NCBI GenBank assembly: GCA_020852965.1
Contig: JADYZV010000020.1
Coordinates: forward strand, 1 to 64,000
Reading direction: 5' to 3'
DNA: 64,000 bases
From: Pirellulaceae bacterium
GTDB taxonomy: Bacteria; Planctomycetota; Planctomycetia; Pirellulales; Pirellulaceae
Positions 1,629 through 59,653 of this stretch are shown here, in pieces. Under the pieces are notes generated by a model. That model had not been told where the DNA came from. It saw only the letters and a list, made by a program, of their open reading frames with translations, and made no database searches. The position numbers were made by a program, and so were the translations under genes. Within the stretch, counting starts at the first letter, position 1, and each line of letters opens with the position of its first letter.

Positions 1629-2942
1629 TTATGCAGCCATTCGACGCCTGCGCGCTGAGGACACAGGCGCGGCGGCTTTGCCCCATGCGGTTTGTTTGAG
1701 CAGCCCATGAAAGGCGGAGAATAGCTTCTGCATGTGCGGTTGCTTGTACGGAAATAGCTCGACGGGGTCCATCGAATGCACTACCGCACCGCTGTCGATC
1801 TCGAACACCAGTAGGCGACCGTCGGCCGTCTCGCCACAGTCGATCGAATAGTAGTCGAGGCCGATGCGCGCGTCGATGGCTGCCAGCGCCGCCGAGTGTC
1901 GCGCGCCAAACTCCCAATCGAACGTATCCATAAAGTGCGCCTCAGCCGCTCGATTGTCGGCATTTTCGACCATGTCCGCATTGAGATAATGCACCATCCA
2001 ACGCGGTGAAAGCGCCATGTGGGCCGGGTAGGCTTTTCCCGACACCGAGGCGACGCGGTACTTGCGATACAAACCATCCTGCTGGCTGCGATAATCGATG
2101 AAGGGTGCCATCGAGAATTCTTCTTCAGGTTGAACGGTGAGATAGTCTTCGAGCTCTGTGGCGGTTTCGATGCGTACCAACCCATGCCCGGCGTGGGAAT
2201 TGGCTGGACGCACGATCCAAGCGGGAGCCGACGATGGAGCGTCAAGCCACATTGCATGACCAGCGTGGGAAGTGGCTGGATGGTCGCTCAATGCGGAATC
2301 CGACGACGGAGCGTCGGGCCACATTCGGGCTTGTTCCCGTAATTCGTCGCGGGAGACACGGCGCGAAGTGACTACTTCGACACCGTCGATACCGCTCAAG
2401 TAGTCACACAAGCCATCGCGCGCTAGCTTGGCTATCTGCTGCGGGCGATTGATATGCGGATGAGGCCAGTAGCTCATCACTGCCTGTAGCTGCCGCAACA
2501 ACTGCTGGTTGCTATCCGATTCACAAACGGCCACAAAAGCGACATCGTGCTTGGGGATGTCATGGACTAATGGTAAACCCGCTCCTACGTAAAGCATCTC
2601 TAGCGCGATGTCGCAATTCTCGACCAAGAATTCGATGGGCGTATTGGCCATCACTTCCCCCGGACCCATGATCGCCAATACGCGCACGGCGGGGCGAAAC
2701 GGGTTCGATTTTATGCGATAGTGCTGTTGTTGTTGTAGGGCCTGCCATTGCAGATCAAGCGCCATTTCGCGCTGTCCGTTGAGCTGATGCACGATAGAAA
2801 GATCGAGCAGCGCGGCCGCGTCACTGCCCGATGCCGCCACTCGACCAACCAATTCGGAGGTCAACTCCGATAGGTTGTCACCAGTGAAGGCCAAACGCAT
2901 GATCTTGGCCATGCCGATAAGCGATTGAGGTTGTTGGGTCAT
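1629..2942 (-). CDS. ATP-grasp (RimK/glutathione-synthase-like) protein carrying a repeat insertion
   Basis: A 437-residue cytosolic protein. The first ~100 residues look TPR-like (LLDLSIVHQLNGQREMALDL). The rest resembles RimK-type ATP-grasp ligases: a VRPANSHAGHG nucleotide-binding loop, a mid-region KYRVASV strand, and a C-terminal DYYSIDCGETADGRLLVFEID metal-binding segment. Substrate unknown. The start ATG overlaps the stop of the upstream decarboxylase gene by four bases, so the two are translationally coupled. Residues around 206-240 contain two copies of the PR-A repeat (MWPDAPSS and MWLDAPSS). They belong to a 72-bp tandem duplication that also copies the SHAGHG loop, so the protein carries one degenerate and one intact loop. 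The reading frame survives. Confidence 0.7.
   Translation of the reverse strand: MTQQPQSLIGMAKIMRLAFTGDNLSELTSELVGRVAASGSDAAALLDLSIVHQLNGQREMALDLQWQALQQQQHYRIKSNPFRPAVRVLAIMGPGEVMANTPIEFLVENCDIALEMLYVGAGLPLVHDIPKHDVAFVAVCESDSNQQLLRQLQAVMSYWPHPHINRPQQIAKLARDGLCDYLSGIDGVEVVTSRRVSRDELREQARMWPDAPSSDSALSDHPATSHAGHAMWLDAPSSAPAWIVRPANSHAGHGLVRIETATELEDYLTVQPEEEFSMAPFIDYRSQQDGLYRKYRVASVSGKAYPAHMALSPRWMVHYLNADMVENADNRAAEAHFMDTFDWEFGARHSAALAAIDARIGLDYYSIDCGETADGRLLVFEIDSGAVVHSMDPVELFPYKQPHMQKLFSAFHGLLKQTAWGKAAAPVSSARRRRMAA
2228..2325 (+). repeat. PR-A repeat pair inside the ATP-grasp gene
   Basis: Two PR-A copies, at 2228-2253 and 2300-2325, exactly 72 bp apart. The 46 bases before each copy are also alike (2182-2227 versus 2254-2299, sharing GCGTGGGAAxTGGCTGGA). 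The unit is therefore repeat plus host sequence, duplicated in frame as 24 codons. Confidence 0.9.
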
Positions 2943-4501
2943 GGGCGAATTCCTAACAGCTTGATTTTACGTCCGAATTTTAAGGCCGCATCGCACAGCG
3001 CATCGACTTCGTGTTGCGTTGTGCGATGGTTGAACAGGGCCGCTCGTATGGCGATTTGCCCGTTGATCAGGGTGCTCGACGGAGCCGCTATACCCGACTC
3101 CTGAAGGGCGATCACCAGCTCGGAATTGAGTGGATTGAGCTCGGTGCTATTGAGCTCGGTACTTCTGAGCTCGGTACGACGCGGAGCGTCGTGCCACATT
3201 GAAGCAGCGGGATGGCCGCGATAGCGAAAGCAGACAATGTTGAGCGAGACCGGAGCTAGCAATTCCAATTCGGGCTCGGCGGCGATACGTCGCTCTAAGC
3301 AACGAGCCAGCTCGCACGTGCCTTCCATCATCTGCCCCAGCCGCTGTGTACCGTAGACTTGCAGCGTGAACCAGACTTTCAAGGCTTTGAAATTGCGCGA
3401 CAGATCGGGACCATAGTCGCAGGGCCATGGCGAACCTGCCGCCATGCCTCGCTCCGCTCGACTCAAGTATGCGGCCGGTGAGGCAAATGTCTCTTGATGC
3501 AATCGTCGATCACGCACCAACACAAACCCCGCATCGTAGGGTACTTGCGCCCATTTGTGGAAGTCGAGCGCCAGTGAGTCCGCTCGCTCAATTCCAGCGT
3601 AACGCGGCCTGAGTCGCTCGGACATCATCCCCAGCGCACCGCAGGCACCATCGACATGAAACCACAATCGTTCGCGCTGGCAGAGATCCGCGAGTGCGTT
3701 TAAATCATCGATCGCACCAGTGTCCACCGTCCCCGCATTGCCGACTACGCAGAATGGTCGCTTGCCAGCCGCTCGGTCGTCTGCGATCGCGGCTTGCAGC
3801 GCGTCGATATCTATACAAAATTGGTCGTTGACGCCAATCGCGTGGAGGCTCTCCGAGCCCAGACCGCTCATGTCTAGCGCCTTGGCCACGCAGCCATGCG
3901 TTCCCGTAGAAGCGTAAGCTACCAGCGATTTTTCTTGACCTCTCATGCCACTGCGTCGTGTCTCAGCACCCAGCGCACGCGTGCGTGCGACAAGCACAGC
4001 AATGAAGTTGGCCATGGAGGAACCGGTTACAAACAGACCGCTAGCATCGTGGGGAAAGCCAAATAGCTCAGCTATCCAGCGCACGACTTGCTGTTCGACC
4101 GCGATCGGTATGTGGTCGCGTCCGCCCAGATTGGAATTCAGACCAGCGGCTAACATTTCTGCCAACATGCCTACGACGTTCCCGCCGCCATGCACCCAGC
4201 CCATGAAACCAGGATGCGCATTGCCTACAGCAAAAGGGAGAATATGCTGTTGGAACGTGGCGTAGGCTTCGCCGAGCGAAGTCGCGTTTCGCGGCAGGCG
4301 CGTCTGGAAGCGGCCTTCGGTGGCTGCATCGGCCGGCTGCCATACCGGTCGCTGCCGGATCTCTGAGATATAGTCCAACATGTCGTCGAGCGCCTGATGG
4401 CTAAGTCGCCGGAAAGCATCCCAATCGGATGGATCTAGCGATTGAAGATGGTCGAACAAATTTGGCGTCCTATCCCGATGTCTGGCTCGTCGCACACACA
4501 T
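2939..4501 (-). CDS. Pyridoxal-phosphate-dependent (aromatic amino acid type) decarboxylase
   Basis: Group II PLP decarboxylase of 520 residues. Visible: the N-terminal HPGFMGWVHGGGN region, the SSMANF substrate-loop serines, the FHVDGACGA strand whose Asp binds the pyridine nitrogen, and DFHKW with the Schiff-base Lys near residue 316. The C-terminal SSTLINGQIAIRAALFNHRTT stretch is typical of the small domain. The substrate could be an aromatic amino acid or a related amine precursor. The C-terminal domain carries an in-frame insertion (MWHDAPRR, then TELRSTEL-type repeats). It is made of one PR-A copy plus a 15-bp tandem repeat, placed between two otherwise conserved strands. It is first in an operon with the ATP-grasp gene (4-base overlap). 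Confidence 0.85.
   Translation of the reverse strand: MCVRRARHRDRTPNLFDHLQSLDPSDWDAFRRLSHQALDDMLDYISEIRQRPVWQPADAATEGRFQTRLPRNATSLGEAYATFQQHILPFAVGNAHPGFMGWVHGGGNVVGMLAEMLAAGLNSNLGGRDHIPIAVEQQVVRWIAELFGFPHDASGLFVTGSSMANFIAVLVARTRALGAETRRSGMRGQEKSLVAYASTGTHGCVAKALDMSGLGSESLHAIGVNDQFCIDIDALQAAIADDRAAGKRPFCVVGNAGTVDTGAIDDLNALADLCQRERLWFHVDGACGALGMMSERLRPRYAGIERADSLALDFHKWAQVPYDAGFVLVRDRRLHQETFASPAAYLSRAERGMAAGSPWPCDYGPDLSRNFKALKVWFTLQVYGTQRLGQMMEGTCELARCLERRIAAEPELELLAPVSLNIVCFRYRGHPAASMWHDAPRRTELRSTELNSTELNPLNSELVIALQESGIAAPSSTLINGQIAIRAALFNHRTTQHEVDALCDAALKFGRKIKLLGIRP
3134..3200 (+). repeat. 15-bp tandem repeat plus PR-A copy inside the decarboxylase gene
   Basis: Three copies of a 15-bp unit (TGAGCTCGGTACTxT) are followed directly by one PR-A copy at 3177-3200. 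The insert encodes a TEL(R/N)S-rich loop without breaking the frame. Confidence 0.85.
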
Positions 4502-4729
4502 TTATCGGCACGCCCCCCGCTCTGTTCGAGCAAACCCGTCAAGAATTGAGAATCACTCTGTCCCAACCACAGTCCAGGCAAACTGCGTCGGTGAGGCAAC
4601 GTCCTCTGTGCTCTCTGGGCCACTATGTTTCAGTTTTTTGTTGAGTAGACCGAACTGCTGCTGTGTTCCGTCCGGTCGTTTTGAAGAATACTAATCTCCA
4701 CTAATTGTCACTAATAACACAGATGCCGT

Positions 4730-5092
4730 TCAGGTTGGCTCTGAAGGCAGCACTACCATCCGTCGCCCTACTGCTTCGGCGTACCGTTCGAGTGTCGCTA
4801 GTGTTGGATTGGCGTCCGCGTTGTTTTCCAAACGCGACAATGCGGCTCGATCGATTCCTGTCCGTTCGTTGATGTCGGCTAAGCTCAGCCCCTGGCGCTC
4901 ACGCTCGGCGCGAAGCGCTGCCAAAACTTGACGCAGTGGCATCCCTTCTTTCTTCAGCACCGCTAAGCGTTCTTTCGCTCGCTGCCGAATATCCGGCAAC
5001 TCTTCCGCGATCTGCTCTCTAACCATTGCAAGCTTTGCACGTTCTTCGTCTGTCGTCGTACGATAAATCCGCTTTCCTCGTTCTTTCGCCAT
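4730..5092 (-). CDS. XRE-family helix-turn-helix regulator (antitoxin-like)
   Basis: A 120-residue DNA-binding protein. The C-terminal half holds an XRE HTH (LRAERERQGLSLADINERTG, then IDRAALSRLENNADANPTLATLERYAEAVG). The N-terminal half is basic and helical. The chosen ATG at 5092 has a good ribosome site (GGAGGG) eight bases upstream. The frame stays open further upstream, because the beginning of another small gene is fused in frame (see 5093-5185). In planctomycetes this type of regulator usually lies just after a ~80-residue toxin-like protein, so an antitoxin or autorepressor role is inferred. Confidence 0.75.
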   Translation of the reverse strand: MAKERGKRIYRTTTDEERAKLAMVREQIAEELPDIRQRAKERLAVLKKEGMPLRQVLAALRAERERQGLSLADINERTGIDRAALSRLENNADANPTLATLERYAEAVGRRMVVLPSEPT

Positions 5093-5185
5093 CGCTATCC
5101 CTCCACTTGGCGTCAAATCATGTTCGGCGATGTGCTCTACATTGCCTCCAGGTTCCTCGTCCCAAATGATCTGGTAATACGCCAT
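5093..5185 (-). pseudogene. N-terminal remnant of a toxin-like small gene fused to the XRE gene
   Basis: Reads MAYYQIIWDEEPGGNVEH then IAEHDLTPSGGIA and runs in frame into the XRE gene. The IWDEEPGGNVEHIAEHxLT start is the beginning of a ~75-80-residue family, BrnT-like in style, that usually precedes such regulators. Only about 30 codons remain, so an internal deletion appears to have removed the rest and joined the start to the antitoxin gene. Confidence 0.5.
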
Positions 5186-5484
5186 TGCGAGCTTTCTTGC
5201 GTGTTGACTTACAATACAACATAAGGTGATTCTAGTGAATACTGCGTCCAGCCATGTGACGCTTCCGCAAGGCATCACCGACCTGCGCACGTTGGTAACG
5301 CTTACAGATTGCACCCGTGGAAACGGCGTGGAAACCACCGAGCTACATTGATCTGGACATGCCCCTCGTCTCCAAGCTATAGAGAGCCATGTTGAGCCAC
5401 CACATGGCAAGCAAGACAATAGCAAACCCAGCCGAGCAACCAATGTAGTGGCCTCTGGCGGAAGAAGTTGTGAGAGGTACGAAC

Positions 5485-5811
5485 ATGATCGAGATTGAAT
5501 CGAGCATCCAGCATAGCTTGGGACAAGAGCTGGCAGTCCAACGCATGCATCAATTGGTCGCGTCGCTGACCGAAAGATTCCCCAGCCAAGTGCATCAAGT
5601 CAGATTGCATCTGAAGGACCACTGGATTGATGTTAGCTTCGCTGCCTATGGCTACTTGGTGCATTGGAAGGCGGAAGTCTACGATGATCAAGTCGCTCTG
5701 CACGGTCGCATCCCTGATTCCGCGAGCAAATTCAAGCGCAAGATTGAAGAAGCCATCCTGTCGCGAGTTGAACCGGCGTTGGTGATGGGCGCAAGTCGCC
5801 GCGCGGCCTAA
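5485..5811 (+). CDS. Polyhydroxyalkanoic acid system (PHA_gran_rgn-like) family protein
   Basis: A 108-residue protein with the pattern IEIESSIQHSLGQELAVQRMHQLVASL, then W-containing strands (DHWIDVSFAAYGYLVHWKAEVYDDQVALHGRIP) and a basic helix (KFKRKIEEAI). That is the layout of the small family annotated as polyhydroxyalkanoic acid system proteins. The family is common in planctomycetes and its biochemical role is poorly defined. ATG 5485 was chosen over the in-frame GTG at 5470 because GAGAGG lies at the right distance before it. Confidence 0.65.
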   Translation: MIEIESSIQHSLGQELAVQRMHQLVASLTERFPSQVHQVRLHLKDHWIDVSFAAYGYLVHWKAEVYDDQVALHGRIPDSASKFKRKIEEAILSRVEPALVMGASRRAA

Positions 5812-5890
5812 CGGTCGGCGGGCGTTGTGGTCTCCACCTGTGCATGGCATTAGAGTAAACTGGCAATACGGTGAATCAAGCCGTTTAGCC

Positions 5891-6976
5891 ATGGAGAACT
5901 CTGACATTTCTGAACAAACTCTGTTACCCGATTCGGCCTACGAATTGTGCGATCGCTTGCGGGCTGGTGCCAGCGGGGTGGACCTTAGCCGCACTTGGCC
6001 GTCCGAACAGATACGCTCGTGCGCCGAACTGGGATTGTTTCGCTGGTTCATCCCCGAGGCTTACGGTGGCTGGCAGTGGAACGAGTCGCAGATCTTGGAG
6101 GGCTATTTGGAGCTCAGCCAAAGCTGCTTGACGACAGCCTTCGTAGTCACGCAATGGCATGCCGCTTGTCGGCGAATCTTGGCCAGTGAAAATCAGACGT
6201 TGAAGGAACGGCTCTTGCCACAGTTGGCGAGCGGCGAAAAATTCGTAACGGTCGGTATCAGCCATTTGACGACCAGCCGACAACACCTTGCCAAACCTGC
6301 CCTGGCTGCCGAACTTCTTGCCGACGGTCGCCTGTTGCTCGATGGCTACAGTCCGTGGGTAACTTCTGCGTGTGCAGCGGATACGATCGTCGTCGGCGCA
6401 ACGCTCGCCGACGGGCGGCAAGTTCTGGTGGCACTCCCGACCGATCGTGTAGGTGTCCAAGTCGGCCCGGGGCAGTCGCTGCTAGCGCTCACGGCCAGTT
6501 GCACTGACCAAGTTACATTGCAGCAAGTCGAAATACTGCCAGAGGAAATTCTGGCTGGCCCCATCGAGAACGTGATGGCACTCGGCACCGGGGGTGGAAC
6601 CGGAGGCCTGCAGACTTCGACGCTGGCGGTGGGACTGACTTTGGCCGCTGTCGATTTCATTTGCCAGCAGGCCGAGCAGCGCGACGAGCTGCTGCCGGTG
6701 GCAGAGAAACTAGCCTCGGATACTGAGGCATTGCGCATTGTGCTGCGCGACCTGACCGAGGGGCGCCAGTCGATCGCACCGGGCGAATTGCGGCAGCGCG
6801 CCAATTCGTTGGTTCTTCGAGCGACGCAAGCGGCGTTGAGTGCGGCCAAAGGTGCCGGCTTTGTATCGGGGCATGTGACCGGTCGTATGGCGCGCGAAGC
6901 ATTGTTCTTTTTAGTGTGGAGTTGCCCTCAGCCAGTAGTCAGCGCCAACCTTTGCGAACTGGCTCAATTGCAATAG
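5891..6976 (+). CDS. Acyl-CoA dehydrogenase-like flavoprotein
   Basis: A 361-residue protein with the acyl-CoA dehydrogenase order of domains. There is an N-terminal helical part (CAELGLFRWFIPEAYGGW, the family's GLFGxxIPExYGG motif), a central beta part (VGISHLTTSR; LLLDGYSPWVTSACAADTIVVGATL), and a C-terminal helical bundle ending AAKGAGFVSGHVTGRMAREALFFLVW. The C-terminal domain is shorter than in the ~380-residue enzymes and the usual catalytic Glu is not evident. The exact reaction cannot be named; flavin-dependent oxidation or monooxygenation is possible. The start at MENSDISEQ is preferred because the upstream in-frame codons lack family resemblance. Confidence 0.72.
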   Translation: MENSDISEQTLLPDSAYELCDRLRAGASGVDLSRTWPSEQIRSCAELGLFRWFIPEAYGGWQWNESQILEGYLELSQSCLTTAFVVTQWHAACRRILASENQTLKERLLPQLASGEKFVTVGISHLTTSRQHLAKPALAAELLADGRLLLDGYSPWVTSACAADTIVVGATLADGRQVLVALPTDRVGVQVGPGQSLLALTASCTDQVTLQQVEILPEEILAGPIENVMALGTGGGTGGLQTSTLAVGLTLAAVDFICQQAEQRDELLPVAEKLASDTEALRIVLRDLTEGRQSIAPGELRQRANSLVLRATQAALSAAKGAGFVSGHVTGRMAREALFFLVWSCPQPVVSANLCELAQLQ

Positions 6977-6997
6977 CTCGCCGCGCCACACGTCTCG

Positions 6998-7023
6998 TAG
7001 TGGACGAGGTTACGAGTCCCTCC
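6998..7023 (+). repeat. PR-B repeat
   Basis: Copy of the GTAGTGGACGAGGTTACG...AGTCCC motif, in the spacer between two convergent genes. It is nearly identical to the pair at 21076-21144. Confidence 0.6.
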
Positions 7024-7041
7024 CACAAGAATCGCAAACGC

Positions 7042-15536: not shown

Positions 15537-17495
15537 CTAATCAAAGGCACCGTGTAGGAACCACTGGCCGGTGTTCATGTCGCGAAAGATCCACCACCAG
15601 CCGGCTTGATGGGTGGCTACGCGAAAGTAATCGCGGCGCACACTCGGGCCGCGCCACCAACCACTCTCTAATCGTTCGGGACCGGTGGCTTCGATAATCT
15701 CTAGCCACGTCCCTCGCCAAGTAAAACGAGTGGGGCAAGCGGATGCGCTGCTGGTCACTTGGATCGGTAAGGGAGGTGAAAAAAGTTGCGTGGGGCGGCG
15801 CTGCGGGTCGTCCCTAGCCGGTTCACCACGCGCTCGCGCGAGTCGTGAACTGAGTTTGCGAACGGTCTGCTGTGCATCCCCATCGGGCTTGCGACCGGTC
15901 ATCGGTTGCAGACGACAGGCCAGCTCCGGTTGCGACTCGCGCTGCAGGCTCGCGCTGAGCACCGCCTTGCGCCCCAGACGACTGCTGAGCGTATCGACCA
16001 AACGGGCGAGCTGCCCCCGGCTAGCGGTCTCCCCCGCTTCGAACAACTCTGTTTGTCGCCATACCAACGGCGCAGTCAGCGTGGCTTGGAGACTCAGCCG
16101 CCACAGCGGCGGTGCGCCGGCGGCCGCCCAGCGACTGGGTAATTGTTGATCCAACTGTCCGGTCAACAACATCTCCAAATGCTGTGCATCCGCGTTGGGA
16201 CGAAACAGTCCCAACTGCATTACCAGTGGCGGCGATTCGACCAGATCTAAGCGACAGACAATTCTTAAAGCACCTTGGCCACGCCGCCCAAGCCGCTCGG
16301 CCAACTGTCGCGCGAGCCGCCGGACCAGCTCGGCCATCGTCTCGCGATGCTGCGTCGGGAATTCGAGCGACTGCTCCAAATGCCAATCGGGCAAAGCGTG
16401 GCGGGTGATGATCGGTTCCGCCTGCTGCCCGGTGGCCTGATCCCAGCGCAGCAACAATTGCTCGCCCAACCGCGAGGCCATCCCTGCGCGCGGAAGTTGC
16501 GACAATTGCCCAATGCGGTGTAGCCCCAAACGTTGCAAGGCGACAAGCGTCTCGGGAGGCAGACGCAGGGCGGCCAGCGGTAGCTCCGCCAGCACACCGG
16601 GTTCGGCCGTGTATTGGACGAGGTCATGAGTCTCTGAAGCAACCGAATCCGACGCGGAGCGTCGGGCCACATTGCTTGCGGGCGCGGCGATGGCGATGCG
16701 GCAGGCAGGCAGGTCATCGGGCGAGCTCGAGTCTTGGCCATCGCGGGGCGTGGCGGGGGAGCGCGTGCGGTAGTTGGCCAATGCCCAAGCCGCTCCGACC
16801 GTGTCAGCTAACCCCAAGCAGCCAAACAGCCGTTGCTTGCCGAGCCAGCCAGCGACCGCGTCGAGCAACTGTGGCTCACCACCAAACAGTCCCGCGATAC
16901 CGGTCACATCGAGCAGTAGACATTCGGGTTGCAACAGCCAGCGGCCAGTCCATGGTTTTTTATCGAGCTGTTCGAGTCCTACCAGCGGGCTGAACTGTTG
17001 AGCTTGTTCGGCCAGTTCACACAGGGCTTCGATATCTTCGTGCGGATCGTGTTCGTGTAGGTCGACATCGATCAGCGCGGTGGCTTCACTCAGTCGCATA
17101 CCAGCACGAATGCCTGCGACGCGCGCCGCCAAGCTGGCCGCGACGACGATCTGTCCCCGTCGCGGATCACGCGTCGAGAGTACCAACGGAGCGCTAGCCG
17201 GCGGCTTTAATGTGCCTCGACGCTCCGCCGTCGGTCTTCCTGCCCTCTTTAATGTGGCCCGACGCTCCGCCGTCGGTTCCCCCCGCAAGCCGTGAGGTGG
17301 AATGTTTACCGAGTGCTGCTGCAATGTGGCCCGACGCTCCGCCGTCGGTTCCCCCCGTGGATTGTTGTGCAGGACGTTGGCCGAGCGCTGCTGGGCGATG
17401 CGCTGTATGGGCCAATTGGGAAGCCAAATACAGAGCACTCTGGGATGGTTGGGCGGTCGCGGCAGTGGTGGCGGTTCGTTCGGCGGTTCGTTCAT
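15537..17495 (-). CDS. imuB: ImuB-like Y-family DNA polymerase homologue with repeat insertions
   Basis: A 652-residue protein of the ImuB branch of Y-family polymerases, which acts with ImuA and DnaE2 in damage-induced mutagenesis and lacks the classical catalytic triad. Landmarks: N-terminal RVLCIWLPNWPIQR, RDPRRGQIVVAAS, SEATALIDVDLHEHDPHEDIEALCELA, LLLDVTGIAGLFGGE, LRLPPETLVALQRLGLHRIGQLSQLPR, and a C-terminal domain ending WWWIFRDMNTGQWFLHGAFD. Four PR-A copies interrupt it: three in frame after IAQQR (reading PTAERRATL or PTAERRGTL) and one in the middle (NVARRSASD). About 50 extra residues therefore split the first strand-helix unit. It overlaps imuA by 302 bases in another frame. No dnaE2 is present in the window. 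Confidence 0.82.
   Translation of the reverse strand: MNEPPNEPPPLPRPPNHPRVLCIWLPNWPIQRIAQQRSANVLHNNPRGEPTAERRATLQQHSVNIPPHGLRGEPTAERRATLKRAGRPTAERRGTLKPPASAPLVLSTRDPRRGQIVVAASLAARVAGIRAGMRLSEATALIDVDLHEHDPHEDIEALCELAEQAQQFSPLVGLEQLDKKPWTGRWLLQPECLLLDVTGIAGLFGGEPQLLDAVAGWLGKQRLFGCLGLADTVGAAWALANYRTRSPATPRDGQDSSSPDDLPACRIAIAAPASNVARRSASDSVASETHDLVQYTAEPGVLAELPLAALRLPPETLVALQRLGLHRIGQLSQLPRAGMASRLGEQLLLRWDQATGQQAEPIITRHALPDWHLEQSLEFPTQHRETMAELVRRLARQLAERLGRRGQGALRIVCRLDLVESPPLVMQLGLFRPNADAQHLEMLLTGQLDQQLPSRWAAAGAPPLWRLSLQATLTAPLVWRQTELFEAGETASRGQLARLVDTLSSRLGRKAVLSASLQRESQPELACRLQPMTGRKPDGDAQQTVRKLSSRLARARGEPARDDPQRRPTQLFSPPLPIQVTSSASACPTRFTWRGTWLEIIEATGPERLESGWWRGPSVRRDYFRVATHQAGWWWIFRDMNTGQWFLHGAFD
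16649..16673 (+). repeat. PR-A repeat in the imuB mid-region
   Basis: Perfect GACGC-GGA-GCGTC palindrome followed by GGGCCACATT. In imuB it is read as NVARRSASD and lies in a surface-type linker between two domains. Confidence 0.9.
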
Positions 17496-18471
17496 GGCTG
17501 GGGCTCTGGGTTGTCGGAAGAGGCTGAGCTGCTGGAGTGCAAGCCGAGTGGTTCAAGCTGTCGTATTGGGCGAGCCGCAGCTTGCCGGTCAGCGGCTCCA
17601 TCTCCAGCACAGCGCTGCGGCCAGCTTGTCCGCCGCGCACTCTGGCCAGTTGTAAGTGCCAGCGGCGACCACGCTGCATAAGGTCATGTTGGCTACGGTC
17701 TCTCTGCACAGGGTCGCGCTGACTTCGGACCAACCACTGCACTTCGGCCCAAGTGGGTTGTCGCCGCGCCTGCCAGCCGCGAAGTAGTAAGGCAAGGCTT
17801 TGACCGCTTTCAGCAGCCAATTGCAAACGCCGCGCAGAGCGGTCGTCGATCCGTTCGAGCTCCGCCACCACAGCGGCCACCGCCGAAGTTCGCAGAGCTT
17901 GGTCGACGGCCCATATCGCATCCCCTTGCGATTCAGGACGAACGAAGATGACCTTGGCCAAGTCGATCCCGTGGCTGGCCAACGGCGGTGGGTAGATGTT
18001 GTGCTGCGTGTCGACCACTACTAAAAAACCATCGGTGGCTTGCATGGCCGCAGCCGCAGCCGCCCAAGCCAATGTGCTGGCACCACAGGCGGGCGTCGCC
18101 CGCAGGTACTCCACGACACACCCCGCAGCATAGCCGCCGCGCGGTAATAAATCATCCAAAGCTGCACAGCCCGCACTGCTCCGCGCCGGTTCGCGACGCG
18201 CGCGACCAGACGATGTCTCCAATTGCGCGATCTCTCGCGTCAGTCGCTCCAGCACGGCCAACGGCTCTTCACCAAGCTTAGCAGGGTTTAAATTGCCTTC
18301 CGACGGCGGAGCGTCGGGCCACATTTTGGGATTGGAATTGCCTTCCGACGGCGGAGCGTCGGGCCACATTTTGGGATTGGAATCGCCTTCCGACGGCGGA
18401 GCGTCGGGCCACATTTTGAGTGGGACCATAGCAGCACCTTCCTGAGCTTGCAGAAAAATCCATTTTACCAA
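17194..18471 (-). CDS. imuA: ImuA-like protein (RecA/SulA-related) with repeats at both ends
   Basis: A 425-residue ImuA-family protein; ImuA is the RecA-like partner of ImuB. Core features: TSSGRARREPARSSAGCAALDDLLPRGGYAAGCVVEYL (the family's GxxxLDxLLPxGG start), TLAWAAAAAAM, FLVVVDTQHNIYPPPLASHGIDLAKVIFVRP, ALRTSAVAAVVAELERIDDRSARRLQLAAESG and ALLLRGW. The N-terminus holds three PR-A units (MWPDAPPSEG, 15 codons apart) and the C-terminus three more (TDGGASGHI). The tail from about residue 325 is low-complexity and runs 302 bases into imuB. The ancestral end was probably near the imuB start. The true start could also lie after the repeats, since the core begins only near residue 65. Confidence 0.75.
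   Translation of the reverse strand: MVKWIFLQAQEGAAMVPLKMWPDAPPSEGDSNPKMWPDAPPSEGNSNPKMWPDAPPSEGNLNPAKLGEEPLAVLERLTREIAQLETSSGRARREPARSSAGCAALDDLLPRGGYAAGCVVEYLRATPACGASTLAWAAAAAAMQATDGFLVVVDTQHNIYPPPLASHGIDLAKVIFVRPESQGDAIWAVDQALRTSAVAAVVAELERIDDRSARRLQLAAESGQSLALLLRGWQARRQPTWAEVQWLVRSQRDPVQRDRSQHDLMQRGRRWHLQLARVRGGQAGRSAVLEMEPLTGKLRLAQYDSLNHSACTPAAQPLPTTQSPSHERTAERTATTAATAQPSQSALYLASQLAHTAHRPAALGQRPAQQSTGGTDGGASGHIAAALGKHSTSRLAGGTDGGASGHIKEGRKTDGGASRHIKAAG
17209..17348 (+). repeat. Three PR-A copies in the imuA/imuB overlap
   Basis: Copies at 17209-17234, 17251-17276 and 17323-17348, spaced 42 and 72 bp, both multiples of three. Both genes are translated through them in different frames. 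Confidence 0.92.
18300..18415 (-). repeat. Three PR-A copies in a 45-bp tandem array at the start of imuA
   Basis: Copies at 18300-18325, 18345-18370 and 18390-18415, separated by an identical ~19-base spacer (TTGGGATTGGAATxGCCTT). The period is exactly 45 bp, or 15 codons. Confidence 0.93.
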
Positions 18472-47025: not shown

Positions 47026-47132
47026 CCGACGCGGGGCGTCGGACCATATTGGTTGGCGAAGTAAAACCGACGCGGAGCGTCGGGCCACATTGGTTGGCGA
47101 AGTAAAACCGATGCGGAGCGTCGGGCCACATT
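47026..47132 (-). repeat. Three PR-A copies, 41-bp intergenic array
   Basis: Copies at 47026-47050, 47067-47091 and 47108-47132, with the spacer TGGTTGGCGAAGTAAAA between them. The 41-bp period is not a multiple of three, unlike the arrays inside genes. Confidence 0.93.
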
Positions 47133-51720: not shown

Positions 51721-52953
51721 CTACCAAGGGAGTCGGGCATTGTCGACGATCGTGGGGGCAAGTGGTAGTGCCTGCCAGTCGAGTCGCCCGATCAGGTCGA
51801 CGGCCTGAAGTGGTTCTGGGGCGGCCTGCAGACCGAGCGTCCACGCAAGATAGCCGACGATGCGCTCAGGGGAAACACCGCTTTGACGAAAGGTACTCAA
51901 GCGAGTGTCGCCATGACGCTTGGCCAATCGGCGACCGTCGGGACCAATCATCAGTGGAACATGAATGTACCGCGGTGGCCGCCAGCCGAGATGTCCGAGT
52001 ATAGCCAATTGTCGAAAGGTGCTGAAAATCAGATCGTCGCCACGCACCACTTCGGTGACTTGCATGTCATGATCGTCGACGACAACAGCCAATTGATAGG
52101 CGGGTGTGCAATTCCAGTGGGCGATGGGAAAGTCAGCGCGTTGTTCAGATAAATGCGAATCGGATAAATGCAAATCCGACGGCCGAGCGTCGGGCCACAT
52201 TCTAAAATCCGACGGCGGAGCGTCGGGCCACATTCCAAAATCGGACGGCGGAGCGTCGGGCCACATTCCAAAATCGGACGGCGGAGCGTCGGGCCACATT
52301 CCGCGGGCAATGACGAAGTCTCCGAGTTGCTCGGCGGGGATGGCACGCATGATGCCGCGAAGTTGGTCATTCCATGACGCTTCGCCATCTGCAAATCGCC
52401 ACCGCCATACGAACTTGTCCGTAGACAGCGAGCGCGGGGCGTCGGACTTCTTCGAAGGGCGGCAAGTGCCTGGGTAGACCGGACCCTCGAGCGTTGCGAG
52501 TGAACTTTCGTGCGGAGCGCTGGCCGCTAGCGCAACTTCGGAACGACTACATGTACACCTATAGACGCTTCCATCAGCGATCAACTGTTCGAGAACTTGT
52601 TGATATCTCGCTAGTCGCCGAGTCTGAATGTAGTCGATGCCATGGATCGGAGGTGTCGAATCGCGGACCGATACGGTGTTGTTCATCGCAGCCTCAGGAC
52701 CTGCGTCCCAGTCCAGCCCCAACCAACGCAAGTCATCGATGGTGGACTGCATCCCCCATGGCTTGACTCGCGGCGAATCGATGTCTTCGATCCGTAGTAT
52801 TAGCCTGCCATGCTGTTGCCGAACCGAGAGCCAAGCCAGCAAGAACGAGCGGGCATTGCCCAGATGTAGGGCACCTGTCGGCGATGGCGCCAGCCGCCCG
52901 ACTACCGGCTGAGTCTGCTGGTGGGTAATCGGCTTGGCCACCGAACCACTCAT
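51721..52953 (-). CDS. gluQ: Glutamyl-Q tRNA(Asp) synthetase with repeat insertion
   Basis: A 410-residue truncated glutamyl-tRNA synthetase homologue that attaches glutamate to queuosine of tRNA-Asp. Motifs: VVGRLAPSPTGALHLGNARSFLLAW (HIGH-type), RIEDIDSPRVKP, zinc ligands CTCSRSE...YPGTCR, HWNCTPAYQLAVVVDDHDMQVTEVVRGDDL and KRHGDT (KMSKS region). Compared with the usual ~300 residues it carries an insertion of about 60 residues (repeated MWPDAPPSDFG units from four PR-A copies), between IARG and the catalytic HWN segment. A fifth, degenerate copy lies near 52426. Start overlaps the stop of folA by four bases. Confidence 0.9.
   Translation of the reverse strand: MSGSVAKPITHQQTQPVVGRLAPSPTGALHLGNARSFLLAWLSVRQQHGRLILRIEDIDSPRVKPWGMQSTIDDLRWLGLDWDAGPEAAMNNTVSVRDSTPPIHGIDYIQTRRLARYQQVLEQLIADGSVYRCTCSRSEVALAASAPHESSLATLEGPVYPGTCRPSKKSDAPRSLSTDKFVWRWRFADGEASWNDQLRGIMRAIPAEQLGDFVIARGMWPDAPPSDFGMWPDAPPSDFGMWPDAPPSDFRMWPDARPSDLHLSDSHLSEQRADFPIAHWNCTPAYQLAVVVDDHDMQVTEVVRGDDLIFSTFRQLAILGHLGWRPPRYIHVPLMIGPDGRRLAKRHGDTRLSTFRQSGVSPERIVGYLAWTLGLQAAPEPLQAVDLIGRLDWQALPLAPTIVDNARLPW
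52176..52300 (-). repeat. Four PR-A copies, 33-bp array inside gluQ
   Basis: Copies at 52176-52201, 52209-52234, 52242-52267 and 52275-52300. Period exactly 33 bp, or eleven codons. A decayed further copy (GCGGGGCGTCGGAC) sits near 52426-52446. Confidence 0.94.
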
Positions 52954-54359: not shown

Positions 54360-54390
54360 GCCGATAGTGATGTAAGGGTGTTGATAATAT

Positions 54391-54484
54391 CCGTGCCCCG
54401 GCCTTGCCATCCGCGCTAGCGAATGACACGAATTCTCGCACGGATGGCAAGGCCGGAGCACGGATGACAGGACGGAAGATGATC
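54391..54484. repeat. PR-E palindromic repeat upstream of thyA
   Basis: Arms CCGTGCCCCGGCCTTGCCAT.. (54391-54413) and its complement (54441-54463) form a 23-bp stem with one mismatch, around a ~27-base loop (GCTAGCGAATGACACGAATT). A tail GGAAGATGATC is shared with the 26.2 kb copy. The rest of the 350-base spacer shows no gene. Confidence 0.75.
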
Positions 54485-54711
54485 TTACTCGCTTCCATGC
54501 ATTCTTACCATCGTCAGGCCAATGGCACAAGCGATTGCAGAATTCGTGAACGACGACGTCAAACTTATGCGTAGCTGCTTATTGCAATTCGGTAGGAGCT
54601 GCGCCCAGAATGAAGCGCAGCCAGGCCAGGACTCCTACTGGCGTGCTACCATATCTTCGCTACGCAGTTATCGCACTCTGTCATCGCCACTCTGTTACTA
54701 AGGAAACAACG

Positions 54712-55614
54712 ATGGGACGCTACACGATCGAAGAGTTCATTCGTCAAACGGCTCAGGATGAGTCGGCCAGGGATTATTTCCAATTGGAAAACGACCGCAT
54801 GCTCGAAGTCAATCTCGATTCGATGGTGTGGATGAAAGCTGGGGCTATGGTGGCTTATGTGGGACAGATCAAATTCACGCGCGAAGGCCTGCTCGAACAA
54901 GGGATCGGTTCGCTGCTAAAACGTAGCGTCACCGGCGAGGGGGCTAAGCTAACCAAAGCCGAGGGGCGTGGACGATTGTATTTGGCCGATAGCGGTAAGA
55001 CGATCAAAATCTTACGTCTGGAGCAGGAGTCGATCTTCGTCAATGGCAGCGATCTGCTCGCCCTAGAGCCGACGGTCAAGTGGGAGATCAAGATGATGCG
55101 CAAACTGGCTGCGGTCGTCTCGGGAGGCTTCTTCAATGTCAAACTCAACGGTTCGGGGTTGGTTGCGATCACCACCCACTTCGAACCGATCACGCTGCTC
55201 GTAAAGCCCGGAGTGCCGGTAAGAACCGACCCCAACGCGACAATCGCTTGGTCGGGCAACTTGACTCCGGCCTTCAAGACGGATGTAAGTCTGAAAAGCT
55301 TTTTCGGACGCGGCAGTGGCGAATCGATTCAAATGGAATTCGATGGCGACGGATTTGTGGTGGTGCAGCCCTATGAAGAGATTAGCCTGCAACATGCCGT
55401 GGGGGGGGAGCGTGCAGAGGGTCCAGTGGCGATCGCTGGTGACTTGAGCGGCTTCTGGCAGGATGCCCAGCGGTCGAGCCATTTGACGAACCTCGTCGAG
55501 TGTCAGCGCGGCGTGGAGCGACTGTCGGAACAGTTGTCGGTTGCTCGGAGTTTCGTTGGCCGCATGCGTGCCTACCAATCGTTCCACCTCGGATTCGTCG
55601 TCGGGACGCAGTAG
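54712..55614 (+). CDS. AIM24 family protein with run-on C-terminus
   Basis: A 300-residue reading frame. The first ~225 residues match the AIM24/TIGR00266-like beta fold (MVWMKAGAMVAYVGQIKF; GRLYLADSGKTIKILRL; GGFFNVKLNGSGLVAITTHFEPITL; TPAFKTDVSLKSFFGRGSGESIQMEFDGDGFVVVQPYEE). The natural family end is close to QPYEE, near 55380. From about 55390 the frame runs on antisense to the methyltransferase gene through a G8 tract (55405-55412 region) and looks non-native. ATG 54712 has a GGAAAC upstream and is the family start. Function unclear; bacterial AIM24-like proteins are poorly characterised. Confidence 0.75.
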   Translation: MGRYTIEEFIRQTAQDESARDYFQLENDRMLEVNLDSMVWMKAGAMVAYVGQIKFTREGLLEQGIGSLLKRSVTGEGAKLTKAEGRGRLYLADSGKTIKILRLEQESIFVNGSDLLALEPTVKWEIKMMRKLAAVVSGGFFNVKLNGSGLVAITTHFEPITLLVKPGVPVRTDPNATIAWSGNLTPAFKTDVSLKSFFGRGSGESIQMEFDGDGFVVVQPYEEISLQHAVGGERAEGPVAIAGDLSGFWQDAQRSSHLTNLVECQRGVERLSEQLSVARSFVGRMRAYQSFHLGFVVGTQ

Positions 55615-56088
55615 ATCGCGGCAGAACAGCCAGCCGCCAGGTTTGCAAACACGCCACATCTGCACCAGCCCCAGAGCGGGTTCAGGAAGATGATGGAGCC
55701 AGCTATTGGACATCACGCCATCGAACAGGTCGTCGGAGAATTCCAACTGTTTCGCGTCGCCGTGATGCAGTTGGATGCGGTGTTCGCATTGGTTGATGGC
55801 GATATTTAACTTGGCCAATTCGAGCATGCTAGTAGCTGCATCGATTGCCACGACGCGACAAAGTCGGAAACGTCGGCAGAGCTCGATGGGAATGAGCGCG
55901 GTTCCCGTGCCGACGTCAAGCACGACACTGTCGTCGGCCGACGGATCGACTGGACCGCGGGAAAGCACATCGGAGGCCAGCAAATCTTCTACAAACGCTG
56001 CATTGACGGCAGCGTGTTCCATCTGGTCATACTCCCGCGCTTCAGCCGGGTCGTTCATGTACTCGGGTTCGAGCGTTCTAGGAAGCAC
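55063..56088 (-). CDS. Class I SAM-dependent methyltransferase with run-on C-terminus
   Basis: A 341-residue frame. Residues 1-235 are a methyltransferase: VVLDVGTGTALIPIELCRRF (motif I), VVAIDAATSMLELAKLN (motif II), GVMSNSWLHHLPEPALGLVQMWRVCKPGGWLFCRDLLRP (motif IV-V), then SDRHWTLCTLPP, the usual end of this family. About 100 further residues antisense to AIM24 follow and show no family pattern. One-base slippage in the C8 run at the junction would stop translation within 10-15 codons in either direction. Substrate unknown. Confidence 0.78.
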   Translation of the reverse strand: MLPRTLEPEYMNDPAEAREYDQMEHAAVNAAFVEDLLASDVLSRGPVDPSADDSVVLDVGTGTALIPIELCRRFRLCRVVAIDAATSMLELAKLNIAINQCEHRIQLHHGDAKQLEFSDDLFDGVMSNSWLHHLPEPALGLVQMWRVCKPGGWLFCRDLLRPDDESEVERLVGTHAANETPSNRQLFRQSLHAALTLDEVRQMARPLGILPEAAQVTSDRHWTLCTLPPHGMLQANLFIGLHHHKSVAIEFHLNRFATAASEKAFQTYIRLEGRSQVARPSDCRVGVGSYRHSGLYEQRDRFEVGGDRNQPRTVEFDIEEASRDDRSQFAHHLDLPLDRRL

Positions 56089-56093
56089 GAGCT

Positions 56094-57110
56094 CTAGCCG
56101 TTGGAGTCCGACGCGGCGGGTGTGCCCAAACGGCTGCTCTCGACCGAAACGGGTGTCTCGTATCCGGGTGAGTCGTATCCGGGTGAGTCGTATCCGGGTG
56201 AGTCGTATCCGGGCGAACTCGATGACTCGCTCGACTGACTTTGCTCGTACTCGCGACTGATGATCGTTGCGAGCTGGAAAGCGTTTCGCAATTCCATCGG
56301 ATTGAAGAACCGTATGTTTCCCGTGTACTGCGATTCGAAGCGATTCTTAAACATTAGCTCGTTCCACGATAGTCCGTTGGCCATGTGCCAGGCAGCGGCT
56401 TGAGCTGTGTTTTGCGGAACTTGTCCAGTTCCGAGCAAACCGCACAGTTGAGCTACACGGGGATCGTTGTTGATGCGTTCGATGGGGACGATCTTGTATT
56501 TCATGCGAGGGTTGGGATCTGTTTTACCGTGCTCCAAGCAGACGCACGGAACGGTCATGGTGCGCTTCTTGTCAGGCTCGATGCGCATCATGCCGCCCAT
56601 CATGCCTCCCATACCTCCCATGCCGCCCATTCCTCCGCCCATACCTCCCATGCCACCCATCATTCCTCCGCCCATGCCTCCCATGCCGCCACCCATGCCT
56701 TGTCCGCCACCCATGCCGCCCATGCCTCCCATGCCTCCTCCCATACCTCCCATGCCACCCATCATGCCGCCTCCCATGCCACCCATGCCTCCCATGCCAC
56801 CCATACCTCCCATGCCGAACTGTCCTAGCACATGAACGGCGCCGAACGCACTAGGAACTGCCACGTTGACCGGCTTGTCTCCTAGGTTCTTGATGACGAT
56901 GGTGGCTTGGGACGCATCCTTGGGGTAGAAATTGACTTCAATTTGGCCTTCATTCATGGCCTGGAACATCTCGACGTCCTGTGCCTCAACGACTTTGTCT
57001 TTGTCTGATTTCTTGTGTCTGGCGGAGGTCTCGGGCTCGGCCGCCCAAACCGATGAAGCGACAACGATAGCCGAAAACAGACTCAGGAATGACCAGGTTT
57101 TGCGATACAT
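56094..57110 (-). CDS. Exported Gly/Met-rich repeat protein
   Basis: A 338-residue protein with signal peptide (SFLSLFSAIVVASSVWAAE). An N-terminal beta-like domain (EGQIEVNFYPKDASQATIVIKNLGDKPVNVAVPSAFGAV) comes first, then about 85 residues of MGG/GGMGGM repeats. The conserved C-terminal part (TMTVPCVCLEHGKTDPNPRMKYKIVPIERINNDPRVAQLCGLLGTGQVPQNTAQAAAWHMANGLSWNEL) looks helical. The tail carries four in-frame 15-bp repeats (SPGYDSPGYDSPGYDSPGYE). The Gly-Met region may bind metal (Met-rich copper sites are known elsewhere) or act as a flexible tether; this is speculative. ATG 57110 marks the signal peptide. Confidence 0.8.
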   Translation of the reverse strand: MYRKTWSFLSLFSAIVVASSVWAAEPETSARHKKSDKDKVVEAQDVEMFQAMNEGQIEVNFYPKDASQATIVIKNLGDKPVNVAVPSAFGAVHVLGQFGMGGMGGMGGMGGMGGGMMGGMGGMGGGMGGMGGMGGGQGMGGGMGGMGGGMMGGMGGMGGGMGGMGGMGGMMGGMMRIEPDKKRTMTVPCVCLEHGKTDPNPRMKYKIVPIERINNDPRVAQLCGLLGTGQVPQNTAQAAAWHMANGLSWNELMFKNRFESQYTGNIRFFNPMELRNAFQLATIISREYEQSQSSESSSSPGYDSPGYDSPGYDSPGYETPVSVESSRLGTPAASDSNG

Positions 57111-57473
57111 AGTTTTCTCTGCTTTTTCTACCAATTCAGGTGTGCACGGCGGCGTGGCAAAGTGAATGGGGTGGCTGGTGAACGAGGTTCCAGCGCGCGC
57201 GATTTCGGGACGAGAACGATTCTATGGTAATCCACGATGGAGCGGCTGTCCAAGGTTTTTTGCGGTACGGGAAAGCCTTCCAGGCCGATTTTTCCATTCC
57301 TGAGGGGAGAATGTGACCGGTTTCACGCTCCTGATGCCGCTCTCCACCCCTCCCCGCTTGCAAACGTGGGTCGGTTTGCTAACCTCTGCCTACGTTTCCC
57401 ATGTTTGGAAGCGGTTTCGACCACTGGTCGGTAGTCGACTATTCTCACCCCACAACTTTTTGAGGAAATCCCC
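57111..57473. other. Spacer between divergent genes
   Basis: Carries the promoters of the Gly/Met-rich gene and fae. No repeat family copy and no gene recognised. Confidence 0.35.
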
Positions 57474-57977
57474 ATGTCGCTATTCGTAGGCGAAGCTCTG
57501 GTAGGCGATGGCAATGAAGTAGCTCACATCGACCTGATGATCGGCAGCAAGACCGGTCCTGTTGGTTCGGCATTTGCCAACGCTCTATGCAATCAGAGCG
57601 AAGGGCACACCAATTTGCTGGCGGTTCTTGAACCCAATCTGCCGGTCAAGCCATCGACCGTGATGATCACCAAGGTCACGATCAAGGGGATGAAGCAAGT
57701 CGTCCAAATGTTCGGCCCAGCTCAGTTCGCAGTGGCCAAAGCGGTTGCCGACCAAGTTGCCGCTGGTGTGATCCCTGCCGATCAGGGCGAAGAGTTGGTG
57801 ATCGTGTGCGGTGTGTTCATTCACCCAGCCGCAGAGGACAACGCCAAGATCTATCAATACAACTACGAAGCGACCAAAGCGGCCATTGCCAATGCAATGC
57901 AGGGCAAGCCGACCGCTCAAGACATGATTGCCAAAAAAGACTCGGCGGCTCACCCCTTCAAGGGTTTCGACGCATAG
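57474..57977 (+). CDS. fae: Formaldehyde-activating enzyme
   Basis: A 167-residue enzyme that couples formaldehyde to tetrahydromethanopterin. Motifs: LFVGEALVGDGNEVAHIDLMIGSKTGPVGSAFANAL (the active-site His is in the HIDLMIG segment), NQSEGHTNLLAVLEPNLPVKPSTVMITKVTIKGMKQ, FGPAQFAVAKAVADQV, VFIHPAAEDNAKIYQYNYEATKAAI. All family features intact, length typical. Strong ribosome site (TGAGGAAA). mtdB follows about 115 bases later, forming a small C1 operon for formaldehyde oxidation or detoxification. Confidence 0.95.
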   Translation: MSLFVGEALVGDGNEVAHIDLMIGSKTGPVGSAFANALCNQSEGHTNLLAVLEPNLPVKPSTVMITKVTIKGMKQVVQMFGPAQFAVAKAVADQVAAGVIPADQGEELVIVCGVFIHPAAEDNAKIYQYNYEATKAAIANAMQGKPTAQDMIAKKDSAAHPFKGFDA

Positions 57978-58092
57978 TGCGTCGATGGCATGCGATCATG
58001 CTCACCGGCTATCACCGTTGCTCTGAGGGCAGGTCACTCCGAGGGCGGTTGAGGGCAAGCAAAATGTTAGACTCGAGCTTGGAGAACGACTA

Positions 58093-58980
58093 GTGGCAAG
58101 TCCTCAAATCTTGATTCAGCTCGATTCCGATCCGCATCCGAGCGTGTTTGATGCAGTGGTCGCAATCGATTCGGGCATCGATCATCTCTTGCAGTACGGG
58201 CAGGTGGAACCGACGAACGTGCGCGCGCTAGTGCATGGGGCCATGTTTACGCGCGGCCCAGCACAATTGGCGTCCACGGCCATCTTTATCGGTGGATCGA
58301 ATGTGACGCTTGGCGAAGCGATCGCTGCGGAGGTCGCGCAGGCTTTCTTTGGTCCGGTTCGCGTCTCCGTGATGCTCGACGGGAATGGCTCCAGTACAAC
58401 GGCGGCTGCGGCCGTGCTATGCGCTGCGCGGCATGTCGAGCTCTCGACCCTCGATGCATTAGTCCTAGGCGGCACAGGGCCAGTGGGGCAGCGCGTGGCG
58501 CGACTGTTGGTCAAGGCTGGTGCCAAGGTACGTTTGGCATCGCGCGATGCGGCCCGAGCCGAACTGGCATGCCAACAACTCAGCGGGCAGGTTGACGTGG
58601 GAGCCAATCAACTCTTGGCCGTAGGGACCTCCGATGCGGGCGTGCTTCAACAGCAGTTGTCGCAAGCGAGCGCTGTATTTGGCTGTGGCGCGGCCGGTGC
58701 TCAACTACTCAGCCAACAGCAGCTCAGCCAAGCTAGCGAATTGAAAGTAGCCATCGACCTCAATGCGGTTCCGCCAGAGGGGCTTGAAGGCATCGCTGCC
58801 ACCGACAAAGCCGTAGCGCGCGGCGGTCGACTCGACTATGGGGCGATCGGTGTAGGTGGGTTGAAAATGAAAATTCATCGCGAGTCGATTCGCACACTGT
58901 TTTCGCGAAACGATTTGGTGCTGGACGCCGAACAGATCTTCGAAATCGGTCGTCAGCTCGAATCGGCTACCACCGTGTAA
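58093..58980 (+). CDS. mtdB: Methylene-tetrahydromethanopterin dehydrogenase
   Basis: A 295-residue NAD(P)-dependent enzyme that oxidises methylene-H4MPT, the step after Fae. Features: ILIQLDSDPHPSVFDAVVAIDSGIDHLLQYG (family N-terminus), ALVHGAMFTRGP, FFGPVRVSVMLDGNGSSTTAAAAV, the Rossmann loop ALVLGGTGPVGQRVARLLVKAGAKVRLASRD, and AIDLNAVPPEGLEGI. Starts with GTG (58093), with GGAG eight bases upstream; no ATG fits. Supports an H4MPT-linked C1 pathway in this organism. The other genes (mch, fhc) are not in the window. Confidence 0.93.
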   Translation: MASPQILIQLDSDPHPSVFDAVVAIDSGIDHLLQYGQVEPTNVRALVHGAMFTRGPAQLASTAIFIGGSNVTLGEAIAAEVAQAFFGPVRVSVMLDGNGSSTTAAAAVLCAARHVELSTLDALVLGGTGPVGQRVARLLVKAGAKVRLASRDAARAELACQQLSGQVDVGANQLLAVGTSDAGVLQQQLSQASAVFGCGAAGAQLLSQQQLSQASELKVAIDLNAVPPEGLEGIAATDKAVARGGRLDYGAIGVGGLKMKIHRESIRTLFSRNDLVLDAEQIFEIGRQLESATTV

Positions 58981-59102
58981 ACTGTTCTCGGCTCGAAGCC
59001 AATCTGGGTTTAACCGCGTAGCGCGCTGCACGGATAAACAATCGATCGCTTCGACAAGCATTCCACGCTGCCGAAGAGCTCAGTCGTCGCGGATCGGTTG
59101 GT

Positions 59103-59570
59103 CTAATCGAATAGCTTGACCCAATCGCTTTGTTGTTTCAGATGAGCGATTGGTGCACCACTGCGCGTGTGCGCTACGTGTGGCAACCATAGCGATTTCT
59201 CCACCAACTCTATTAGTGCGTAGGGATCGACCGGCTTGAGTAGGCAAAACACTCCACCGTGCGCCGATAGTTTTGGCTGCCAAGAGCTTGAGAGCTCGGG
59301 GACGAGAAAAATGATCGGCACATCGCGCGCGATCTCGGGACCACGCAACTTGGCAGCAAACGCGCAGCCGCTGCCCAGTTGCTCGATGGACAACACAATC
59401 ACGTCGAATTGGCCTTCGGCGATGGAACGCATGGCCATCTCTTCATTGCGCGCAAGCACTGCCCGATGCCCTTGCATGTCCAGCACCGAGCCCATCGCGG
59501 TGAGCATCAAGGGATCGTTGTCGATCAGCAATACCGAAGAGGTGACCGTATCCGTGCGCAGAAAAGTCAT
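59103..59570 (-). CDS. Atypical receiver-domain protein
   Basis: A 155-residue response-regulator receiver-like protein (SVLLIDNDPLMLTAMGSVLDMQGHRAVLARN; FDVIVLSIEQLGSG; PIIFLVPEL; VFCLLKPVDPYALIELV). The acidic pair (DND) and the conserved Lys (LKP) are present. The phosphoacceptor Asp of the usual D-x-xMPxxxG motif is replaced by Ser (VLSIEQLGSG), so normal phosphorylation is not expected. No output domain, only a ~25-residue tail. Could be a phosphorylation-independent interaction module. Confidence 0.75.
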   Translation of the reverse strand: MTFLRTDTVTSSVLLIDNDPLMLTAMGSVLDMQGHRAVLARNEEMAMRSIAEGQFDVIVLSIEQLGSGCAFAAKLRGPEIARDVPIIFLVPELSSSWQPKLSAHGGVFCLLKPVDPYALIELVEKSLWLPHVAHTRSGAPIAHLKQQSDWVKLFD

Positions 59571-59585
59571 CGTGTAATTCCTCTC

Positions 59586-59653
59586 AAAGTGGCACGACGC
59601 TCCGCGTCGCTTGCTGTGTTGTTCTTATTCGACGCGGAGCGCCGAGCCACATT
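59586..59653. repeat. Inverted pair of PR-A copies between two genes
   Basis: A forward copy (59586-59610) faces a reverse copy (59629-59653), with about 18 bases between. The pair can form a long stem and lies just past the end of cysE, where it could act as a transcript-end hairpin. Confidence 0.85.

Follow-up and report, generated by a model that had tools for sequence, protein, structure and literature searches.

The 64,000-nucleotide stretch analysed here (the window), positions 1 to 64,000 of contig JADYZV010000020.1 in the Pirellulaceae bacterium assembly GCA_020852965.1, carries many copies of PR-A, a palindromic repeat of 25–26 bases with a tail on one side. We consider it very probable (about 0.85) that PR-A is a repetitive extragenic palindromic (REP) sequence of the GT[AG]G class, which was scattered by a lineage of REP-associated tyrosine transposases (RAYTs) still intact in sister genomes and was then expanded in tandem. 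The family is a striking case of an already described kind of REP and not a new kind of element, and it is set apart by unusually strong amplification, tandem arrays and intragenic copies. An original prediction, made from the letters of the window, had described a small, non-autonomous, amplified repeat under selection to stay open in every reading frame; the first part of this description is borne out by the results below, and the second is not.

The PR-A element and its copy number

A logo built from 130 loci, one copy each, has sharp ends and reads CCGACG(G)C GGA GCGTCG[G/A]GCCACATT, with no longer terminal repeats of the type found in miniature inverted-repeat transposable elements. Read on the opposite strand, the element consists of AATGTGG, one nucleotide and then a hairpin. 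Two forms were distinguished in a sample of 2.28 Mb (27% of the genome, window included), of which ~1.31 Mb came from contigs with a known copy and the rest from contigs 47–89, chosen regardless of copies. At up to four mismatches the sample holds 224 copies, apparent chance matches included, 81 of them in genes; the long form CGACGGCGG is the commonest (110/224), the short form CCGACGCGG accounts for 44, and 124 copies are identical to the 20-base core. The tag is GTGG in 196 of these copies and GTAG in 11. The short form folds into a 7-bp stem with a TCC loop (−8.2 kcal/mol, z −3.7 against shuffles) and the long form, with 6 bp in the stem and 6 nt in the loop, has a modest folding advantage over shuffles (z −1.3 to −1.4); in both forms the hairpin stands one nucleotide from the unpaired GTGG. 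Extra short copies, either of the tail GCCACATT or of AGCGTCGRGCCACATT lacking a full stem, were noticed next to complete ones at three loci (L110:2364, L102:6880 and L095:5709) and in one array of contig C44.

All 19 copies originally listed in the window are present, and the window gives 19 matches to GGAGCGTCGGGCCACATT at up to three mismatches versus 0.08 expected from 100 dinucleotide shuffles. The genome-wide consensus search that had been proposed revealed a large excess: in the assembly, which comprises 199 contigs totalling 8.37 Mb (completeness 99.5%, contamination 3.6%), the 20-base core occurs 620 times at up to three mismatches, 307 forward and 313 reverse, versus 0 for the reversed control. 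At up to two mismatches the count is 596, and of the 396 genomes searched in the order those that come next have 5. Matches in 14 same-genus genomes number 0 to 5 at up to three mismatches, near the reversed control (0 to 2). High PR-A copy number is thus seen in this genome alone, and a burst of a non-autonomous repeat to ~600 copies, set beside at most five matches in those 14 genomes, makes a clear case. A scan of genome contigs yielded, among the matches listed, one locus in a Renibacterium metagenome-assembled genome, which is uninformative. One same-genus genome (G011) carries two core copies in direct repeat, with one mismatch each, at C559:39–107, and has no other match.

GTAG REPs are defined in Table 1 of PMC3733652 by an unpaired GTAG or GTGG beside a stem of 5–13 bp with a loop of 2–20, and both PR-A forms fall within these ranges. 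Judged against excerpts of PMC3733652 and PMC6006769, PR-A resembles the GT[AG]G REPs in the short, GC-rich hairpin that stands beside its unpaired GT[AG]G, in its many copies, in having kin that flank a RAYT, and in being mostly extragenic with some copies in frame in genes. It differs from them in that one third of the sampled copies lie in predicted genes, the arrays are nearly all head-to-tail, the cognate RAYT persists only as remnants, and high copy number occurs in one genome of 396 in the order. The same excerpts of PMC3733652 already report REP families in Rhodopirellula baltica and intragenic REPs, including some in DNA repair and tRNA synthetase genes; they also describe Opitutus terrae, in which most GTAG-20 units are GTGG-tagged and which has the most intragenic GTAG repeats of that survey. 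GTAG-20 of O. terrae is the closest described behaviour to PR-A, the R. baltica families being represented in this comparison by their text description. Our literature search for intragenic REPs with a RAYT returned PMC3733652 alone, and found none further for Rhodopirellula REPs.

The transposase lineage and the tandem arrays

The link to a transposase comes from two sister-genus genomes (G024 and G102), in which near-identical GTAG/GTGG hairpins surround a RAYT of 222 aa. This protein matches the NCBIfam family REP_Tyr_transpos (REP-associated tyrosine transposase) at 3.8e-13, below the curated cut-off, and Pfam Y1_Tnp just above the cut-off. The genome that carries PR-A has two N-terminal RAYT remnants (C101:26376–26912), 60–62% identical to the G024 protein; they lie in tandem (L149:1379–2046), are 88% identical to each other over 56 residues, and have REP copies before and between them. 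Both lack the region bearing the transposase match, and the transposase gene has apparently been broken up together with its own repeats. With the transposase gene reduced to two N-terminal fragments in this assembly, PR-A has probably stopped spreading by means of its own enzyme. The REP-associated transposase gene that the original prediction had thought worth seeking is represented by a lineage tied to the repeat in sister genomes, and by remnants only in the genome itself.

Homologues of the RAYT N terminus were found in 41 of 149 genomes of the family, this genome included, and 15 loci were fetched from the 52 listed matches outside it. Strict GT[AG]G hairpins lie within 1.5 kb at nine of these 15 loci (0.54 per kb), two of the nine being those of G024 and G102, versus two of 33 control loci (0.017 per kb). 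The hairpins at RAYT loci mostly have a TCC-type loop, and their stems differ by lineage; a tag and loop that stay constant while the stems change would be expected of REP/RAYT pairs.

The arrays bear the marks of a second, local process. Single copies occupy 74 of 124 sampled loci, and among 88 adjacent pairs 81 are direct and seven inverted, all seven with tags outward. Consecutive spacers of equal length have a mean identity of 90% (26 pairs), and eight pairs differ in length; spacers match the flanks of their own array at 0.66, versus 0.42 in the control. Near-identical spacers that resemble their own flanks are as expected if the element and some flank were duplicated in tandem in many arrays. 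Inverted REP pairs constitute REPINs, with which PR-A shares its seven outward-tagged inverted pairs and from which it differs in that such pairs are a minority (7/88). Fairly regular spacing of hairpin repeats might also suggest an array of clustered regularly interspaced short palindromic repeats (CRISPR), integron attC sites or a family of transcription terminators, and 51 of 74 scored intergenic loci do lie between co-directional genes, slightly above the 57% of intergenic bases so placed. Judged by spacers and placement, this alternative is extremely improbable: the equal-length spacers are near-copies, unlike captured spacers, and copies occur inside genes and in both orientations.

Several observations weigh against a RAYT-scattered GT[AG]G REP. 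A stricter rule, given in excerpts of PMC6006769, requires that the stem begin with 7 or more fully paired nt and the loop have 2–5 nt, with a bulged long hairpin as the alternative; the short form agrees with it, and the commonest form, as folded, falls outside. Head-to-tail dimers are absent or rare in most published REP families according to excerpts of PMC3733652, and the predominance of head-to-head and tail-to-tail pairs typical of them is not seen in PR-A; the same excerpts describe some families as largely clustered, with units reiterated in tandem together with flanking DNA. Tandem duplication of flanks exceeds the 95% control in only 18 of 44 arrays, and six of the 15 RAYT loci have no strict hairpin. 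A search with the sister-genus protein found no intact cognate RAYT in the assembly. Seven other Y1 hits in this genome were considered as partners and rejected, having no strict REP hairpin around them; one PR-A copy lies ~1.2 kb from one of the seven.

The missing intact enzyme, the slippage-like look of the local arrays and the presence of those other Y1 transposase hits would each fit amplification of the same element by other means, either replication or recombination in the host (through template switching or slippage) or an unrelated transposase acting in trans. We judge this unlikely, as the many loci with a single copy require a dispersal step, the RAYT remnants lie among REPs, and the sister genomes retain the classic arrangement. 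Under the RAYT-based reading, PR-A as single-stranded DNA would present a short hairpin set one spacer nucleotide away from a GTGG guide; a RAYT, a single-strand Y1 transposase, would recognise this element and would have scattered copies through one genome in a recent burst. Many copies would then have expanded locally as head-to-tail arrays that include part of the flanking DNA, and replication slippage would be the simplest route to this. Between genes any spacing would survive, and within genes only those copies and arrays that keep the frame, often in loops, linkers and ends.

Placement in genes and reading frames

Placement was counted at up to three mismatches, which excludes 12 copies with four mismatches, among them the genuine window copy at 2228 (four mismatches to the 20-base core); genes were called by a simple hexamer gene caller, with 83% of the sample coding. 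On this basis the sample holds 212 copies at 124 loci, 132 intergenic, 71 in genes and nine at gene edges. Random placement would put 82% of copies in genes, and the observed 71/212 is a depletion. PR-A is predominantly extragenic in the sample, as GT[AG]G REPs are, and the window, in which 14 of 19 copies lie in open reading frames, is untypical of the genome: outside it, 58 of 194 copies are in predicted genes.

Copies that do lie in genes are often internal, with 30 codons or more separating 28 of 39 in-gene loci from either gene end. Twenty of the host proteins, all from beyond the window, were scanned, and 14 of them have a Pfam family. By coordinates, four of the 14 (an MFS transporter, a sugar-binding N domain, QueG and an FAD-binding oxidoreductase) have the repeat inside a single domain match and one (AcrB-like) has it at the border of a matched stretch; in the remaining nine it falls between the matches listed or beyond them. 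Some PR-A host genes contain the planctomycete domains PSCyt1, PSD1 and DUF1501. The elements were also considered as a source of gene starts, an idea rejected on a count of 0 predicted starts within an element.

All 31 spacings between direct neighbours within one gene are multiples of three, including all 24 of those outside the window; the 44 intergenic direct pairs are divided 17, 13 and 14 among the three spacing classes. The in-gene count presupposes a called open gene, and arrays that break the frame would have been filtered out of it and may be among the 10 mixed or edge loci. Four frames, read in the long form as DGGASGHI, PTAERRATL, NVARRSAV or MWPDAPPS, account for 38 of 39 in-gene loci. 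The other two are nearly unused (RRRSVGPH, as translated by us, at 0 of 39 and CGPTLRRR at 1 of 39), though all six are equally open; the bias could arise if those peptides are selected against or if insertion sites are phased by codon.

The preserved frame in all 31 in-gene spacings and the near absence of two of six readings would also be compatible with a family of coding palindromes kept because its peptides, or its openness in six frames, benefit the host. We consider this highly improbable. The consensus is free of stops in all six frames, as originally claimed, but the same holds for ~42% of letter shuffles of the short form and ~44% of those of the long form. A stop in some frame is carried by 16 of the 212 copies, four of 71 in genes versus 12 of 132 between genes. 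Openness is thus common by chance, and the proposal that it is selected in every frame is not upheld, nor does it sit with four frames holding nearly all in-gene loci. Host benefit is further opposed by the intergenic position of most copies, by a peptide that varies with frame and strand, and by the very low confidence, like that of disordered segments, with which the insert in gluQ (see below) is predicted.

A GTGG tag lacks the stop that GTAG carries in one frame, and this absence may help GTGG copies survive in genes. At up to four mismatches no difference is seen between the two placements, GTAG being carried by four of 81 copies in genes and seven of 133 between them. It is conceivable, but we think doubtful, that in drifting by a single base from GTAG to GTGG the guide lost this one-frame stop, which made more frames survivable and let an extragenic palindrome give rise to in-frame inserts of variable length in conserved proteins. 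If this were true, in-gene arrays would act as slow minisatellites of protein length, one of them extending two overlapping DNA-repair genes. PR-A offers a system in which the effects of RAYT loss, of changes in the guide and of filtering by frame on intragenic REPs can be tested.

A parallel with Rickettsia palindromic elements (RPEs) had been drawn, and it holds for behaviour: like those described in excerpts of PMC10969869, PR-A lies in frame in many unrelated protein genes. It differs in kind, RPEs being ~150 bp there and PR-A 25–26 bp, GT[AG]G-tagged and with RAYT-linked kin. The R. conorii elements RPE-4 and RPE-6 are placed, in excerpts of PMC3733652, in the CGTC class, for which no linked transposase was found. 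Membership of that class (unpaired terminal CGTC, 8–9 bp stem) was rejected for PR-A, in which CGTC is within the paired stem, GTGG is the unpaired tag and the kin are linked to a RAYT.

Insertions in host genes of the window

The host genes and PR-A copies of the window are as follows.

1629–2942, minus strand: open reading frame earlier labelled ATP-grasp, without a family match
2228–2253 and 2300–2325, plus strand (tail orientation): two copies in the 1629–2942 frame, read MWLDAPSS and MWPDAPSS
2939–4501, minus strand: gene for a decarboxylase dependent on pyridoxal phosphate (PLP)
3177–3200, plus strand: copy towards the C terminus of the decarboxylase, read MWHDAPRR
15537–17495, minus strand: imuB (Y-family polymerase-like, DUF6504)
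16649–16673, plus strand: copy in the variable linker of imuB, read NVARRSAS
17194–18471, minus strand: imuA
17209–17234, 17251–17276 and 17323–17348, minus strand: three copies where imuA and imuB overlap, giving PTAERRATL in the imuB frame and TDGGASGHI at the C-terminal end of imuA
18300–18415, plus strand: three tandem copies repeating every 45 bp at the 5' end of imuA, read MWPDAPPS and of ambiguous coding status
47026–47132, plus strand: three tandem copies with a 41-bp period, intergenic by gene calls
51721–52953, minus strand: gluQ (tRNA glutamyl-Q synthetase, 410 aa)
52176–52300, plus strand: four tandem copies with a 33-bp period inside gluQ, read MWPDAPPS or MWPDARPS
59586–59609, minus strand, and 59629–59653, plus strand: inverted pair with tags outward, intergenic by gene calls

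Fourteen of the 19 copies had been placed in the coding sequence of five conserved genes. All 14 do lie in open reading frames, and the three at 18300–18415 may precede the true start of imuA, since TTG and GTG codons lie between them and the conserved part. The conserved host genes number four: the frame at 1629–2942 has no Pfam or NCBIfam match, which leaves its ATP-grasp identity unconfirmed, and among seven same-genus genomes it gave a weak partial match in one and no orthologue set. The proposed comparison of host proteins with orthologues was carried through for gluQ and imuB, and none could be assembled for this frame.

Insertion into a host gene is demonstrated, by alignment with orthologues, for gluQ and imuB. 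The four copies in gluQ constitute an insert of ~60 residues between GDFVIARG and TPAYQLAVVVDD, which is missing from all eight aligned orthologues (six from the same genus and two from the sister genus), where the flanks are joined directly or within a few residues. The alignment drew on ten genomes, from which G011 and G096 were excluded for weak matches, probably to another glutamyl-tRNA synthetase. AlphaFold modelling with nine sequences gave a mean predicted local distance difference test (pLDDT) score of 69.7, with block means of ~77–95 on either side of the insert and ~30, below 50, across the insert itself (residues 223–279); some other loops also score below 50. The insert is predicted to be disordered, and its presence indicates that conserved enzymes tolerate PR-A inserts of this length.

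Three copies in imuB split the conserved LCIWLPNWPIQR and PLVLSTRDPRRG blocks, and the REP-coded insert is missing from nine of nine aligned orthologues, the alignment comprising nine loci with that of G096 excluded. The gene caller began imuB downstream of the three overlap copies, which we assign to the gene because the block upstream of them is conserved. The same copies lengthen imuA just before its last residues, and several relatives end in similar residues; one repeat cluster in this way lengthens two overlapping genes in two frames. Unrelated inserts occupy the same place in two sister-genus imuB orthologues (L188 and L190), and the site seems generally tolerant. In the decarboxylase, alignment to a relative of solved structure (PDB 4obu) places 18 gap residues (11 + 7) at the REP copy. 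Annotation of such genomes should guard against false peptide motifs such as MWPDAPPS.

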